DNA of 64,000 bases from Rhodocyclaceae bacterium (GTDB taxonomy: Bacteria > Pseudomonadota > Gammaproteobacteria > Burkholderiales > Rhodocyclaceae), in assembly GCA_018883265.1 (NCBI GenBank), contig VEQK01000004.1, positions 1 through 64,000 on the forward strand, read 5' to 3'. The position numbers and the translations under genes are program-made. Positions 13,907 through 59,419 of this stretch are shown in pieces. The notes below the pieces were generated by a model, which saw only the letters and a list, made by a program, of their open reading frames with translations, was not told where the DNA came from and did not search any database. How positions within the stretch are numbered: the stretch's first letter is position 1; every line of letters begins with the position of its first letter.

Positions 13907-14317
13907 ATGACCTCACCTTGCCCACTTTGCACGCCCACAGGCGAAGAAGTTCTCTATCTATCTGATTTATATAGAGTAATAGCTGTTAACGACCCGGCCT
14001 GGCCGGGCTTTTGCCGGGTTATCCTCAATTCGCACGCCGCAGAGATGACCGACCTTCCGGTTGAGGATCGTTCATCGCTCATGAAGGCCGTTTGCGTCAC
14101 GGAATCAGTTTTGCGCGATCTCATGAACCCGGACAAAATCAATCTGGCAAGTTTGGGCAATGTTGTACCGCATGTGCACTGGCATGTGATTCCCCGTTGG
14201 CAAAGCGACTCGCACTTTCCTGATCCGATCTGGGCAAACGCTAAACGCGAATGGGCAAACAAGCCCAGGGTTGATCATCAAAAAATCACCGCACGGCTCA
14301 AGGCCTGCCTCGGTTAG
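13907..14317 (+). CDS. HIT family protein (histidine triad)
   Basis: CPLC N-terminal motif and histidine triad HVHWHVIPRW; start at MTSPCPLC. Confidence 0.92.
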   Translation: MTSPCPLCTPTGEEVLYLSDLYRVIAVNDPAWPGFCRVILNSHAAEMTDLPVEDRSSLMKAVCVTESVLRDLMNPDKINLASLGNVVPHVHWHVIPRWQSDSHFPDPIWANAKREWANKPRVDHQKITARLKACLG

Positions 14318-14346: not shown

Positions 14347-14362
14347 TGTTTCACGTGGAACA
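14347..14362. promoter_or_regulatory. parS-type ParB binding site
   Basis: TGTTTCACGTGGAACA; reverse complement TGTTCCACGTGAAACA equals the classical parS 16-mer. Confidence 0.85.
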
Positions 14363-14398
14363 TCGGGCGCTGTCTCGTGCGACTTGTGGCTGCATAAC

Positions 14399-15358
14399 CT
14401 ACTTGCTGGTCGCAACACCCGGTAGCTGACACGACAAGATCGCCTGACGAACCGCGTCGATGGCTTTTGGTCGTGGAAAGGTCGTCCGCCAAGCCAGACC
14501 AACGGTTCTACCGATCTCATCCGGCCCCCTGGATTTGCCAGTTTTAGCAGCCGGTTTGGTATCAAACGGCAACACCTTGACCATGGGTTCCCGCCCCACG
14601 AGGGGATCCGCTGCCGAGCTGGGCATCACGGCAATACCGGCGCCGCTCGCTACCATGTGGCGGATAGTCTCTAACGAGCTGCCCTCCAGCGAACCGGAAA
14701 GACCCTCCGCCCGCTGAAGACGGGGGCAAGCTTCCAGAACCTGATCCCGGAAACAATTGCCACTGCCGAGCAGGAGGAGGTTCTCGCCTTCTAGCTCATC
14801 ATTTCTGACGGCACTGCGTGACGCCCAGGGATGCAGGGCCGGAACCACAACCCGAAAGGGTTCTTCGTAGACTTTTTGAGTTACTACTCCGGGCAGATCA
14901 ATCGGCAGCGCCAGCACCAAGACATCCAAATCACCGTCCTTAAGAGCGGGCAATAGATTGTGCGTAAAGTCTTCACGCAAAAAAAGTGGCATCTCTGGCG
15001 CCAGATTATGTAGCAGAGGGATCAGCGCAGGCAGTAAATAAGGCGCAATGGTATAAATCACCCCGACGCGGAGCGGACCTTTCAGCGGATCGCGGTTCTG
15101 GGTGGCGATTTCCTCCAGGCGCAACGTTTCATCCAGAACCCGTTTAATCTGGGCAACGATCTGTTCGCCGAGCGGGGTGGTGCGGATCTCGGTAGCACCG
15201 CGCTCGAAAAGTGGCGCACCGATCTGCTGCTCGACTTTTTTGATGGCCACGGAAAGGGTGGGCTGACTCACGTGACACAGGTCAGCAGCTTTTCCGAAAT
15301 GCCTCGTTTTATCCAGCGCTCCAATGTAGCGCATCTCCGTTAATGTCATTGTGGCCAT
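14399..15358 (-). CDS. oxyR: LysR-type hydrogen peroxide sensor OxyR
   Basis: LTEMRYIGALDKTRHFGKAADLCHVSQPTLSVAIKKVEQQIG HTH; redox cysteines in GSGNCFRDQVLEACP. Confidence 0.92.
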   Translation of the reverse strand: MATMTLTEMRYIGALDKTRHFGKAADLCHVSQPTLSVAIKKVEQQIGAPLFERGATEIRTTPLGEQIVAQIKRVLDETLRLEEIATQNRDPLKGPLRVGVIYTIAPYLLPALIPLLHNLAPEMPLFLREDFTHNLLPALKDGDLDVLVLALPIDLPGVVTQKVYEEPFRVVVPALHPWASRSAVRNDELEGENLLLLGSGNCFRDQVLEACPRLQRAEGLSGSLEGSSLETIRHMVASGAGIAVMPSSAADPLVGREPMVKVLPFDTKPAAKTGKSRGPDEIGRTVGLAWRTTFPRPKAIDAVRQAILSCQLPGVATSK

Positions 15359-15397
15359 GCGTATGTTCGCTTGTGTAATTTAGTCATTATCTCCGAA

Positions 15398-15413
15398 GGT
15401 TTCACGTGGAACA
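15398..15413. promoter_or_regulatory. parS-type ParB binding site
   Basis: GGTTTCACGTGGAACA, one mismatch at position 1 to TGTTTCACGTGGAACA. Confidence 0.75.
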
Positions 15414-15450
15414 TTTCGCTGGGGCGAGGCCTTGACCAAAATTCGGAGGA

Positions 15451-15466
15451 TGTTTCACGTGAAACA
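15451..15466. promoter_or_regulatory. parS ParB binding site (perfect palindrome)
   Basis: TGTTTCACGTGAAACA, perfect 16-bp palindrome. Confidence 0.92.
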
Positions 15467-15481
15467 AATCTTGACTGCCTA

Positions 15482-16216
15482 TCAGGGTGACCATCCAGCA
15501 AGTAGCATACTCCGGGCATCCAACCATTGCCAATCCCCGGGCGCAAGATCTTCCGGCAACAGCAGGTCACCGATGGCGATCCGGGACAGCGCCGACACAT
15601 GATTACCCGCCGCCGCAATCATCCGCCGCACCTGATGGTATTTGCCCTGAGTGATGGTCATCTCGAGTAGGGCCGGGTTGATCAACCGGCAAGCCTCTGC
15701 AGCAAGAGTTTCTTCTTCATCCTTGAGCAGCACGCCGGCCAGAAGTTGGTCACATAAATCTTGGCCTGCGGCCTCGGCCAGAACGGCACGGTAAACCTTG
15801 GGCACGGCATGCCTGGGCGAGGTCAGCACGTGAATGCACGGTCCGTCATCCGTCAGCAGCAAAAGACCGGTGGTATCGACATCCAGGCGGCCCACCGGCT
15901 GCACATCGCGTTCGCGCAACGGATCCGGCAAGAGCGACAGAATGCTGGGGTGATGTTTGGGCGCCCTTGAGCATTCGTAGCCGACAGGCTTGTTGAGCAA
16001 AATATAGGCATGCTGGCAATACGGCCAGACACCATCAAAACCCTCGACCTCAAAACGAAGTTCCTCCGTTTCAAACACCTCGTCGTGGTCCTCACAAAGA
16101 TTCCCATTGACCAGAACCCCACCTGATCGAATCAGGCTACGGCAAAACTTGCGGGCGCCAAAGCCCTGGCTCTGCAGGAGCCGCTCGAGGGTGCTGCGAC
16201 GATTGGATTTGTTCAT
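15482..16216 (-). CDS. rsuA: 16S rRNA pseudouridine synthase (RsuA-type)
   Basis: S4-like N-terminus; VQPVGRLDVDTTGLLLLTDDG catalytic motif; GKYHQVRRMIAAAGN. Confidence 0.9.
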   Translation of the reverse strand: MNKSNRRSTLERLLQSQGFGARKFCRSLIRSGGVLVNGNLCEDHDEVFETEELRFEVEGFDGVWPYCQHAYILLNKPVGYECSRAPKHHPSILSLLPDPLRERDVQPVGRLDVDTTGLLLLTDDGPCIHVLTSPRHAVPKVYRAVLAEAAGQDLCDQLLAGVLLKDEEETLAAEACRLINPALLEMTITQGKYHQVRRMIAAAGNHVSALSRIAIGDLLLPEDLAPGDWQWLDARSMLLAGWSP

Positions 16217-16362: not shown

Positions 16363-18897
<2,535 letters not shown>

Positions 18898-18923: not shown

Positions 18924-20027
18924 TTAAATACGCATTGGCATAACGACATATTTGAAATTAGGGCTATCGGCCGGACCAAACAAAGCACTGGAATTCGAGT
19001 CATTAAAGCGCCAGACCACGGTTTCATCGGTGACATGGCTCAGGACATCAAGCAGGTAATTGACATTAAAGCCGATATCCAGACGATCCCCACTGTAATT
19101 AGCTTCAAGTTCTTCCTGCGCTTCCTCCTGTTCGGCATTCGCGGCACTAATGCGCAACGCGCCGTTTTCCAGAATCAGACGTACGCCTGAGAACTTTTCA
19201 TTCGACAGAATACGGGCACGCTGCAAGGCCTGACTGAAAGCGATACGGTTCAACACCAGTTCCTGGGAGAAGCTTGGCGGAATCACTCGCGTGTAATCGG
19301 GGAACTTGCCATCAATCAGTTTGGTGACAAACACGACATCGCCAAAAGAAAAGCGCGCCTGATTATTAGCCAGCGTAATGTTGAGCGGATCTTCGGAATC
19401 GGCCAGCAGACGGGCAAGTTCAAGAACTGACTTGCGCGGCAGAATGACTTCCTGTCGTTCCAGGCTTTCGCCAATCTCCATCTGGGCAAAGGCCAACCGA
19501 TGCCCATCCGTCGCCACTGAGCGCAGCGCCGTTCCCTCTACCTGCAACAACATGCCGTTCAGGTAATAACGGACATCCTGAGCAGCCATGGCATATTGAG
19601 TTTGTCCCAGAAGTTGCTTGAACGACTTCTGGGTCACTGAAAACGATATCTGATTAGCCGCATTGAGATTCATTTGCGGAAAATCTTCGGCTGGTAACGT
19701 CTGTAACGAGAAACGGCTCTTGCCTGCCTTGATCACCAGGCGCTTCTCGTCCAGATCCAGACTGACAGTCGACTCTTCCGGGAGTGAACGCAGAATATCC
19801 TGCAACTTGCGGGCGCCTACCGTTACTGCACCTTCGGCGCCTCCTTCCAGCTGGGTGCCGGTGGTGATCTGAATTTCGATATCCGTAGCAACCAATGTCA
19901 GCATCGCCCCTTTTTTCTCGATCAACACATTAGACAGGATCGGTAGTGTATGACGCTTCTCGACAATGCCTACAACGGTCTGAAGGGGTGCCAGGAGCGT
20001 TTCTCTAGAGGTCTTTAATAACAACAT
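18924..20027 (-). CDS. dnaN: DNA polymerase III beta sliding clamp
   Basis: MLLLKTSRETLLAPLQTVVGIVEKRHTLPILSNVLI; C-terminal YVVMPMRI. Confidence 0.99.
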   Translation of the reverse strand: MLLLKTSRETLLAPLQTVVGIVEKRHTLPILSNVLIEKKGAMLTLVATDIEIQITTGTQLEGGAEGAVTVGARKLQDILRSLPEESTVSLDLDEKRLVIKAGKSRFSLQTLPAEDFPQMNLNAANQISFSVTQKSFKQLLGQTQYAMAAQDVRYYLNGMLLQVEGTALRSVATDGHRLAFAQMEIGESLERQEVILPRKSVLELARLLADSEDPLNITLANNQARFSFGDVVFVTKLIDGKFPDYTRVIPPSFSQELVLNRIAFSQALQRARILSNEKFSGVRLILENGALRISAANAEQEEAQEELEANYSGDRLDIGFNVNYLLDVLSHVTDETVVWRFNDSNSSALFGPADSPNFKYVVMPMRI

Positions 20028-20230: not shown

Positions 20231-21655
20231 TCATCCTTTCAAGACCTGCAGAAGAACGTGAATGTCATGATTGATCTGTTGATCCTTACCGCGTAGGTCT
20301 TCCACTGTGCGGACCGCATGCAGAACGGTTGTGTGATCACGGCCGCCGAAGGATTCGCCGATCATCTGGTAGCTGTGAGGCGTCACCTCCTTGCAGAGCC
20401 ACATGGCGATTTGCCGTGGGCGGGCAATTGCCCGACTACGCTTCTTGGAATAAAGGTCCGCAACCTTCAATTTATAGTAGTCGGCAACCATTTTCTGGAT
20501 GTTTTCGACTGTAATCTGCCGGTTGTAGGCGCCAACGATGTCTTTTAGGGCTTCTTTTGCGGTTTCCAGGGTGATTTCACGCCCATGGAACTGCGCAAAT
20601 GCTAAAACCCGGGTCAAAGCACCCTCTAATTCGCGAACATTGGACCGTAAATGCTTGGCAATGAAGAATGCAACCTCATCCGAGATCGGTTTACCCTCGG
20701 ATTCCGCCTTCTTTTTAAGGATGGCGACCCGCATTTCCGTTTCCGGCGGTTCGATCTGGACCGTCAGACCCCAGTCGAGGCGGGTAATCAGACGATCCTC
20801 AAGACCTTCAATTGCCTTTGGGTAGGTGTCGCAGGTAATCACTATCTGCTTGCGCGCTTCGACAAGGGCATTAAAGAGGTAGAAGAACTCTTCCTGAGAG
20901 CGATCTTTGCCCTTGAGGAACTGGACATCATCCAGTAAGAGCAGATCCAGCGACCGGTAATTGCGTTTGAAACTATCAAAAGCCTTCTGTTGATAGGCGC
21001 GAACCACATCCGAGTAATAGTCTTCGGCGTGCACGTAACGGATGACCTTGGTCGGGTCGGCCGTTAGTACGGCATTGCCGATGGCATGGATCAGGTGCGT
21101 CTTACCCAGACCTGCACCACCATAGATAAATAGTGGGTTGTAAGCCCCCCCGGGTGACTGCGATACATTCAGGCACGCGGCGCGGGCGAGCTCGTTGGCT
21201 TTACCAACAACCAGAGAATCAAAGGTGAAATGCGGCATCAAGCGGGTGCCCTGGCCATTGAGCGTGGTGCCGCTTTTACGGCTGCCACTGGCATGGGCGG
21301 CAGATTGACGAATATCTTCTGTGTTTGGGGCGGTATTAATCGGTTTCGGCGCGGAAGTTGGTACGGTCGTCACCCCTGCAGCACGGGTTGGTAAACCGGC
21401 TACGGCTTGTGTCGTACCGATCGAGAGCACAATGGTCACAGGTTCGTTATAGAACGCTTCGGCCAGGCGCTGAAAAGCGGCCAGATAATTGTCACGGACC
21501 CACTTAAGAATGAAGCGATTCGGGGCGTAAATGGTGACTTCGCTGTTCGCATTTTTATCCCCGTCGGACTGTAACGGGCGAATCCAGGTGCTGAACTGTT
21601 GGGCAGGTAAATCAGCCGCCAACTGGTCAAGACAAAAATTCCAGAATGGATTCAT
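20231..21655 (-). CDS. dnaA: chromosomal replication initiator protein DnaA
   Basis: NPLFIYGGAGLGKTHLIHAIGN Walker A; LLLLDDVQFLKGK Walker B; GGRDHTTVLHAV signature. Confidence 0.99.
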   Translation of the reverse strand: MNPFWNFCLDQLAADLPAQQFSTWIRPLQSDGDKNANSEVTIYAPNRFILKWVRDNYLAAFQRLAEAFYNEPVTIVLSIGTTQAVAGLPTRAAGVTTVPTSAPKPINTAPNTEDIRQSAAHASGSRKSGTTLNGQGTRLMPHFTFDSLVVGKANELARAACLNVSQSPGGAYNPLFIYGGAGLGKTHLIHAIGNAVLTADPTKVIRYVHAEDYYSDVVRAYQQKAFDSFKRNYRSLDLLLLDDVQFLKGKDRSQEEFFYLFNALVEARKQIVITCDTYPKAIEGLEDRLITRLDWGLTVQIEPPETEMRVAILKKKAESEGKPISDEVAFFIAKHLRSNVRELEGALTRVLAFAQFHGREITLETAKEALKDIVGAYNRQITVENIQKMVADYYKLKVADLYSKKRSRAIARPRQIAMWLCKEVTPHSYQMIGESFGGRDHTTVLHAVRTVEDLRGKDQQINHDIHVLLQVLKG

Positions 21656-21860
21656 GATGTTATACGATTATTAGGCAAATAAAAGCAATGATAAAAATGG
21701 AAAAATTGTGAATAACCTGTGGATAACATGAATGGCAAAAAACACGAAGGGGCCTCAAAGAGACCCCAATAAGGATGCAGGATACCTCAATACTGGCCTT
21801 TTGTACCATCAATTATCCTTGACGAGGAAACTTTTCCACAGAAACGGTGGATAAGTAAAA
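21656..21860. other. oriC: Chromosomal replication origin (oriC) region between dnaA and rpmH
   Basis: AT-rich start followed by DnaA-box candidates: tgtgaataa 21707-21715, tgtggataa 21718-21726 (perfect), ttttccaca 21832-21840, ggtggataa 21846-21854; conserved dnaA/rpmH gene context. Confidence 0.85.
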
Positions 21861-33294: not shown

Positions 33295-34062
33295 ATGCGT
33301 ATTCTGGCGATTACCAATCAAAAAGGCGGCGTGGGCAAAACCACATCAGCCGTTAACCTGAGTGCGGCCCTGGCCAAGCTGGGTAAGCGTGTGCTGATCA
33401 TCGATCTCGACCCACAAGGTAATGCAACGACCGGCTGCGGTATTGTAAAAACGGATGCGCTGCCAACGGTGTATCAACTATTGCTGGGCGACACCTCGCT
33501 GGCCAGTGCCGTTGTTAAAACCGAATACGGTTTTGATATTCTGCCGGCTAACCGTGAACTGGCAGGCGCCGAGATCGAATTGATCGAGCTCGATGGTCGC
33601 GAACAGCGGCTCAAGGATGCGCTGGCAACCGTGGCGGACCAGTATGATTACGTACTGATCGATTGCCCGCCGGCTCTGAATATGCTGACCGTGAATGCGC
33701 TGGTGGCTGCGCAGTCCGTGCTGATTCCGATGCAGTGCGAGTACTACGCGCTGGAAGGTTTATCGGATCTGGTCGAAACGCTGCGTAAGGTGCGCGCTAA
33801 CCTGAATCCGGATCTGGAAATCGAAGGTTTGCTGCGCACGATGTACAACGCGCAGAACACCCTGACCCAGCAGGTGTCGGACGAATTGATGAACCACTTT
33901 GGCGATAAGGTGTACGAAACCATTATTCCGCGCAACGTGCGCCTGGCCGAAGCGCCGTCACACGGCAAGCCGGCCACCGCCTACGATGCGTCGTCCAAAG
34001 GTGCTCAGGCCTATGTGGCGCTGGCCGAAGAAATGCTTGGCCGCCACAAGGCCGCTCAATAA
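33295..34062 (+). CDS. parA: chromosome partitioning ATPase ParA
   Basis: ILAITNQKGGVGKTTSAVNLSAALA deviant Walker A; DLDPQGNATTGCG; YVLIDCPPAL. Confidence 0.97.
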   Translation: MRILAITNQKGGVGKTTSAVNLSAALAKLGKRVLIIDLDPQGNATTGCGIVKTDALPTVYQLLLGDTSLASAVVKTEYGFDILPANRELAGAEIELIELDGREQRLKDALATVADQYDYVLIDCPPALNMLTVNALVAAQSVLIPMQCEYYALEGLSDLVETLRKVRANLNPDLEIEGLLRTMYNAQNTLTQQVSDELMNHFGDKVYETIIPRNVRLAEAPSHGKPATAYDASSKGAQAYVALAEEMLGRHKAAQ

Positions 34063-34082: not shown

Positions 34083-34997
34083 ATGAACGCGAAGAAACAA
34101 ACCCGTGGACTGGGGCGCGGTCTGGATGCCCTCCTCGGCGGTTCTAAACCGGCCGTCGCCGACAAAACGACCCCGGAAAAAACCGCTCATTCGTTGCCGG
34201 AGGTGCCGCGCACGCTGCCGGTGAGCGATCTGCAACCGGGCAAGTATCAGCCGCGCACCCGCATGGACGAAGCCAGCCTGAACGAGCTGGCCTCCTCCAT
34301 TGCCGCACAGGGTTTGGTGCAGCCGATTATCGTGCGCCCGCTGGGCGCCGGTGCATCAACACCGTACGAAATCATTGCAGGCGAACGCCGCTGGCGCGCA
34401 TCGCAAATCGCCGGCCTCAAAGAGGTGCCGGTGCATGTGCACCACATCCCCGATGAAGCGGCGTTGGCGATGGCGCTGATCGAGAACATCCAGCGCGAAG
34501 ATCTGAACCCGCTGGAAGAGGCGCAGGGCCTGCGTCGTTTGATCGACGAGTTTGAATTGACGCACCAGGAGGCGGCGGAGGCCGTGGGCCGTTCGCGATC
34601 GGCGGCGACTAACCTGTTACGTTTACTGGAGTTGGCGCTGCCGGTGCAAAACCTGCTGATGCAGAGCCGCCTCGATATGGGACATGCGCGAGCCTTGTTG
34701 GCGCTGACCGGAAGCGACCAGATTGCTGTGGCGCAGCAGGTGGTTTTGAAGGGCCTATCCGTGCGCGAAACCGAGGAGCTGGTGCGTCGGCACCTGAGCG
34801 GCAAAGCGCCGCCCAAGACGGGCGGCGCTGCGGCGAAGGCCGAAAGCGGCGACGTAGCGCGACTGTCGGAAAGGCTGGCAGATGCACTCGGCGCCGAGGT
34901 CAGGATTGCGGCGAACAAACGTGGCGCCGGCAAGATCACGATCAGCTTTCACAGCCTTGATCAGCTCGATGGGCTCATTGAGCGTTTTTCTGATTGA
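34083..34997 (+). CDS. parB: chromosome partitioning protein ParB
   Basis: KKQTRGLGRGLDALLGG; YEIIAGERRWRASQIAGLKEVPV; ALIENIQREDLNPLEEA; HTH AVGRSRSAATNLLRLLEL. Confidence 0.97.
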   Translation: MNAKKQTRGLGRGLDALLGGSKPAVADKTTPEKTAHSLPEVPRTLPVSDLQPGKYQPRTRMDEASLNELASSIAAQGLVQPIIVRPLGAGASTPYEIIAGERRWRASQIAGLKEVPVHVHHIPDEAALAMALIENIQREDLNPLEEAQGLRRLIDEFELTHQEAAEAVGRSRSAATNLLRLLELALPVQNLLMQSRLDMGHARALLALTGSDQIAVAQQVVLKGLSVRETEELVRRHLSGKAPPKTGGAAAKAESGDVARLSERLADALGAEVRIAANKRGAGKITISFHSLDQLDGLIERFSD

Positions 34998-59398: not shown

Positions 59399-59419
59399 TT
59401 ACCCACAAAGTTATCCACA
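59399..59419 (+). promoter_or_regulatory. Tandem DnaA boxes upstream of priA
   Basis: TTACCCACA (59399-59407) and perfect TTATCCACA (59411-59419). Confidence 0.65.

Follow-up and report, generated by a model that had tools for sequence, protein, structure and literature searches.

Judging from their sequence, the three palindromes that bracket oxyR near the replication origin of this Rhodocyclaceae genome are chromosomal parS sites, and ParB is predicted to bind them. The cluster is parS of an ordinary, known kind; what is unusual about it, and at the same time evolutionarily stable, is its tie to oxyR. Very probably, the best joint explanation is a parS centromere serving ParB/ParA-dependent segregation, together with a particular history of the individual sites and a modest damping of oxyR. 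ParB would bind each 16-bp site, close into a CTP-dependent clamp and slide onto the neighbouring DNA, ParA would separate the ParB-loaded origin regions after replication, and Smc would probably be loaded at the parS cluster. The site past oxyR appears to be old and common to one clade of the family, and the upstream pair, located between rsuA and oxyR, would have been added in the ancestor of the genus, within a new spacer that parted formerly overlapping genes. This would locate the centromere of a Rhodocyclales genus, one that crossed oriC relative to most of the family and yet is attached to one gene. It also lends itself to a clean comparative test of whether the position of parS is neutral or whether parS-adjacent genes are selected by how they respond to ParB.

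Palindromes, origin and partition genes in the window

The window, that is the whole stretch of 64,000 nucleotides analysed, carries the three 16-mers with the letters and at the coordinates that a sequence-only reading had reported, and their distances to the two ends of oxyR also hold (Table 1). All three lie outside coding sequence and depart from the degenerate 16-bp parS consensus TGTTNCACGTGNAACA at zero (site 1), one (site 2) and zero (site 3) positions. The window is expected to hold 0.28 matches with up to two mismatches by chance, and three or more were reached in 1 of 100 shuffles. In the whole assembly, a draft of 1,864,122 bases in 72 contigs that is 96% complete, TGTTTCACGTGAAACA was matched at up to two mismatches three times, against an expectation of about 0.5 by our own arithmetic. 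The three matches are sites 1 to 3, all within 1.12 kb. The next-best matches stand at three mismatches and are chance-like, and the reversed pattern, used as a control, found no match in the whole assembly even at three mismatches. The scatter of equally good matches around the chromosome that the sequence-only reading had named as evidence against itself did not appear, none lying elsewhere at up to two mismatches. A fourth CACGTG at 15264 (TGACTCACGTGACACA, three mismatches) was considered as a site and rejected, as it encodes H-V-S-Q in the LysR helix-turn-helix and is subject to drift within the genus.

Table 1. Features around the replication origin: name, positions in the window, strand and remarks
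HIT-domain protein gene	13907..14317	+	convergent with oxyR; ATG at 13907 read from sequence
parS site 1	14347..14362	.	TGTTTCACGTGGAACA; intergenic between oxyR and the convergent HIT-family gene, 36 bp 3' of the oxyR stop
oxyR	14399..15358	-	LysR family, 319 aa, cysteines C202 and C211
parS site 2	15398..15413	.	GGTTTCACGTGGAACA; start 55 bp before the oxyR ATG
parS site 3	15451..15466	.	perfect palindrome TGTTTCACGTGAAACA; start 108 bp before the oxyR ATG, 15 bp beyond the stop of the rsuA-like gene
rsuA-like 16S pseudouridine synthase gene	15482..16216	-	upstream of oxyR, same strand
gyrB	16363..18861	-	
dnaN	18924..20027	-	
dnaA	20231..21655	-	start at 21655
probable oriC core	21707..21854	.	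four DnaA-box matches, each with at most one mismatch
parA	33295..34062	+	
parB	34083..34997	+	sole ParB_N protein in the genome; parS-type helix-turn-helix residues

The genomes of the genus support the assignment. Five were compared, the one studied here and four others (G001 to G004), with sizes of 1.4-2.3 Mb, the smaller ones being incomplete. Each holds exactly three matches at up to one mismatch to the degenerate consensus, and always in the same arrangement, with one site 3' of oxyR and two in the rsuA-oxyR gap, so that the conservation in related genomes for which the sequence-only reading had called is found in all five. Since G002, a single contig of 2.3 Mb, also has exactly three sites, a further site in the missing sequence of the present genome is unlikely. 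Between species, the parS columns are 93% identical in the gap 5' of oxyR, against 39% for the other columns, and 96% identical in the 3' gap, against 49%; near-perfect sites in a background of 39-49% identity delimit the elements precisely. Substitutions within the sites mostly exchange T and C at position 5 or A and G at position 12, either of which still fits parS.

The genome also encodes a cognate ParB. The protein carries the CTP-binding motifs GERRWRA and ENIQR, and an Smc is encoded elsewhere in the genome (1046 bits against a cut-off of 567). Aligned to Caulobacter ParB (6t1f), the window ParB has GRSR for GKSR(173) and MGHAR for AGHAR (G201), such that the equivalents of R173 and G201 (Caulobacter numbering) are both present. 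These two residues are reported to be absolutely conserved in parS-reading ParB and to be replaced by Q and R in Noc (PMC7383237). The reading as a chromosomal parS cluster, as first proposed from the letters, is upheld by the sequence of the sites, their uniqueness in the genome, their conservation under strong constraint in the genus and the residues of the cognate ParB.

The proposed origin near 21.7 kb is supported by the DnaA boxes and the start of dnaA, which point to about 21.7-21.9 kb, and parA and parB were found at 33.3-35.0 kb as anticipated, in the gene order mnmG-rsmG-parA-parB. The parS cluster lies 6.2-7.5 kb from oriC and parAB about 11.5 kb from it on the other side. The placement of the cluster across oriC from its own genes thus stands as a layout; it is not remarkable, since the same is seen in P. 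aeruginosa. The dnaN-gyrB stretch of the window lacks recF, and a dnaA-dnaN-gyrB run of this kind, like the mnmG-rsmG-parA-parB order, agrees with a betaproteobacterium of the Rhodocyclales. Two adjacent DnaA-box-like sequences (TTACCCACA, TTATCCACA) occur at 59399-59419, 37 kb from oriC.

The bracketed gene had been read as oxyR, a name retained here to express orthology, because the NCBIfam OxyR equivalog NF008361 is the best of 47 model hits for its product and, among solved structures, P. aeruginosa OxyR (4x6g, E 4e-90) is the nearest. The score of 218 bits does not reach the cut-off of this model (329 bits), and by its sequence relationships the window gene is OxyR by orthology, outside the membership of the E. 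coli-type model. The redox cysteines lie in GNCFRDQVLEACP, spaced as C199 and C208 of E. coli, and all eight sequences aligned have a cysteine at both positions.

History of the sites

Across the family and order, sites were surveyed with the 14-mer core GTTYCACGTGRAAC, the outer two bases being relaxed. In Azonexus, Dechloromonas, Propionivibrio, Accumulibacter and the window genus, the core follows the end of oxyR at a distance of 0-160 bp; in eight loci of Dechloromonas/Azonexus type it begins immediately after the stop codon. A 16-mer survey at up to one mismatch had suggested that Dechloromonas lacks an oxyR site, a view that the core search overturned. The oxyR loci surveyed in Thauera, Azoarcus, Zoogloea and Oxalobacteraceae carry no site past oxyR. 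Contigs labelled Desulfobulbus (L108) and Gammaproteobacteria (L127) carry oxyR loci of Azonexus type and Thauera type, respectively, and are probably misbinned.

On a tree of 99 OxyR sequences, labelled by the presence of parS up to 200 bp past oxyR, all 28 labelled sequences belong to a single clade with 32 members (SH-aLRT 98); the label requires 5 changes compared with 24.6 when labels are shuffled. Two of the four exceptions in the clade have a decayed site right after the stop (one and two mismatches), one has a site at 606 bp, and the fourth has no site within 1 kb past oxyR. The simplest reading of this pattern is that the oxyR-parS linkage had a single origin that was followed by losses. 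What is new here is that, as far as these sequences tell, a site just past oxyR is a mark of one clade comprising Azonexus/Dechloromonas, Propionivibrio, Accumulibacter and the window genus. The closest named relatives of the window OxyR are those of Dechloromonas and Azonexus (66-70% identity), and the window genus is the sister of the Dechloromonas/Azonexus group on the tree. A horizontal transfer of oxyR, suspected from the 57-60% identity to most family members, was discarded, given that the tree puts the gene beside Azonexus and Dechloromonas.

The upstream pair has a different distribution. In genomes of Dechloromonas, Azonexus and Propionivibrio, the end of rsuA and the start of oxyR share 4 nt (ATGA), whereas all five genomes of the window genus have a spacer of 96-135 bp that holds exactly two parS sites. 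The start of the oxyR-proximal site precedes the ATG by 48-49 bp in the other four species and by 55 bp in the window, that of the distal one by 86-120 bp across the genus; counterparts of sites 2 and 3 are absent in the other genera compared. Since the relatives have the overlap where this genus has the two-site spacer, we regard the pair as a genus-level gain that would have split two coupled genes. Also new, on the genomes compared, is that the upstream pair is genus-specific and fills the gap between rsuA and oxyR. A promoter scan of this gap found no convincing sigma-70 promoter, the sole match lying inside the 3' end of rsuA.

The survey also turned up other layouts. At one locus of the same order (L205, G480:C61:134616-137078), at least 12 perfect parS sites are arrayed head-to-tail over 2.4 kb, the repeat unit being 220 bp; such a centromere array differs from the one to four sites that are usual. 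Another locus (G349:C157:5841-6016) has three parS sites in 62-bp tandem repeats. A complete family genome (G007:C10) has no 16-mer site at up to one mismatch; its parS sites, with G/C as outer bases (GGTTTCACGTGAAACC type), lie at about 38.7 kb and at 48565-96879 (L282-L287) and are spread over about 58 kb. Sites of this type would escape surveys that use the 16-mer consensus.

What the sites may do besides segregation

It is expected that ParB clamps would cover oxyR, as the sequence-only reading proposed, yet such coverage would not be special to oxyR: the ParB peak of P. aeruginosa is about 50 kb wide, and the same span here would take in gyrB, dnaN and dnaA too. Effects of ParB on neighbouring genes have precedents. 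In P. aeruginosa, mutation of parB or parS raises the expression of genes next to the intergenic parS3 and parS4 but not of those next to the intragenic parS1 and parS2, and in promoter fusions an excess of ParB represses only when parS is intact (PMC5521831). In S. pneumoniae, comCDE rises upon mutation of a nearby parS (PMC7022226). Since the sites bracket oxyR and one lies about 50 bp before its start codon, we propose a modest damping of oxyR by ParB, and by this analogy a modest repression through ParB loading is plausible.

It is possible that the sites are primarily regulatory and that ParB is a dedicated oxyR repressor linking oxidative stress to chromosome copy number or segregation. 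The bracketing has been kept in five species with one upstream site at 48-55 bp before the ATG, the parS-oxyR linkage appears to have arisen once and to have been retained in a clade of about 30 genomes, and ParB of P. aeruginosa does repress promoters beside the intergenic parS3 and parS4 (PMC5521831). However, these are the sole parS sites in the genome, such that segregation must come first. Elsewhere in the family, moreover, parS adjoins mnmG or mnmE without oxyR, ParB complexes extend for tens of kb, which would bring gyrB and dnaA under them too, and elements that are tens of bp apart remain linked without any functional tie. We therefore consider a primarily regulatory role unlikely. 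A functional tie in which ParB loading sets oxyR expression, with the palindrome of some relatives doubling as a terminator hairpin, is likewise doubtful; if true, it would couple the peroxide response to the segregation of the origin. A literature search of open-access text found nothing on point for parS together with oxyR.

Perhaps some or all sites double as terminators, the parS palindrome forming the hairpin core that ends the rsuA or oxyR transcripts. Sites do lie just past the stops of both genes. On the strand of the HIT-family gene, the site 3' of oxyR in another genome of the genus (G001) reads AAATGCCGA-TGTTTCACGTGGAACA-TCGGCATTTTTATT, a palindrome extended by 10 bp with T-runs on both sides that resembles a bidirectional terminator hairpin, and the rsuA site there has 8 extra pairs; the site just past oxyR in Candidatus Propionivibrio aalborgensis has 13. 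Across the order, the flanks of 115 sites form 320 pairs over the first 8 positions, compared with 243 +/- 14 after shuffling (none of 3000 shuffles as high), the effect having first been noticed in another sample that slightly overlaps this one. At least four perfect extra pairs are present at 11 of the 115 sites, against 0.8 expected, and a T-run accompanies 6 of 16 long-stem sites but only 11 of 118 others (Fisher p 0.006).

Against this, the flanks of all three window sites are complementary for a few bases at most. Use of the window sites as terminators was rejected, none of the three having a GC-rich extended stem or a terminator match. Sites in Dechloromonas abut the stop without any extension, and a class-wide sample from outside the order shows no excess of flank pairing. 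The latter sample is uninformative for this question because most of its sites are coding and recF-like (FHVE motif). The rows of these samples are not independent; some near-duplicates were left out by hand from the order and class-wide samples, and most LDWG-type sites from the class-wide one as well. A third new point is that, across the order, a minority of intergenic parS sites (G001 C133 and L136 10952 among them) form the core of perfect palindromes that are much longer and in some cases have T-runs, which suggests a use as terminator hairpins; that sites of the cluster double in this way is a quite unlikely prospect. A literature search limited to open-access text found no description of parS within terminator-like palindromes. 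Outside the order, among the class-wide loci (L175-L204), many parS sites fall within coding sequence in which an FHV(E/K) frame is open, typically as two sites about 615-630 bp apart in a recF-like context (LDWG..FHVE and FHVEHG motifs).

That a different palindrome-reading regulator uses the palindromes as operators, or that they are OxyR sites, is very improbable: they do flank a regulatory gene, but they match the parS consensus exactly, as do the ori-proximal mnmG/mnmE sites of the same family, and the genome has no further copies and one cognate ParB. Chance matches or coding constraint, which their short length would allow, can practically be dismissed in view of the match statistics, the uniqueness in the genome, the conservation in five genomes, the constraint relative to the rest of the two gaps and the noncoding position of all three.

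Comparison with other parS arrangements

The parS reading can be set against three known arrangements. Most family and order genomes with a readable locus keep parS on the same side of oriC as parAB, either in the mnmE-mnmG interval or immediately ahead of mnmG, which indicates that the cluster of the window genus has moved relative to the family norm. The mnmE-parS-mnmG arrangement shares with the window the sequence of the sites and the order rsmG-parA-parB beside mnmG; unlike the window, it places usually one or two sites on the parAB side of oriC, away from oxyR. At the junction in Azonexus, Dechloromonas, Propionivibrio and Accumulibacter, parS likewise follows the oxyR stop at a distance of 0-160 bp, in most cases with rsuA-oxyR ahead of it. 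In contrast to the window, these genomes have no site between rsuA and oxyR and carry extra single sites in the oriC region, placed before gyrB or at a distance of 7-9 kb, and in Dechloromonas-type genomes parS abuts the oxyR stop codon itself.

P. aeruginosa provides a close parallel in layout, with parAB about 7 kb counterclockwise of oriC and parS1-4 clockwise within 16 kb of it (PMC4368675). Its parS1-parS4 belong to the same 16-bp palindrome class and are clustered across oriC from parAB, and its intergenic parS sites adjoin stress-related genes with ParB-repressed promoters (PMC4368675, PMC5521831). Two of its sites, however, are inside recF and two stand before PA0011 and PA0013, whereas those of the window bracket oxyR.
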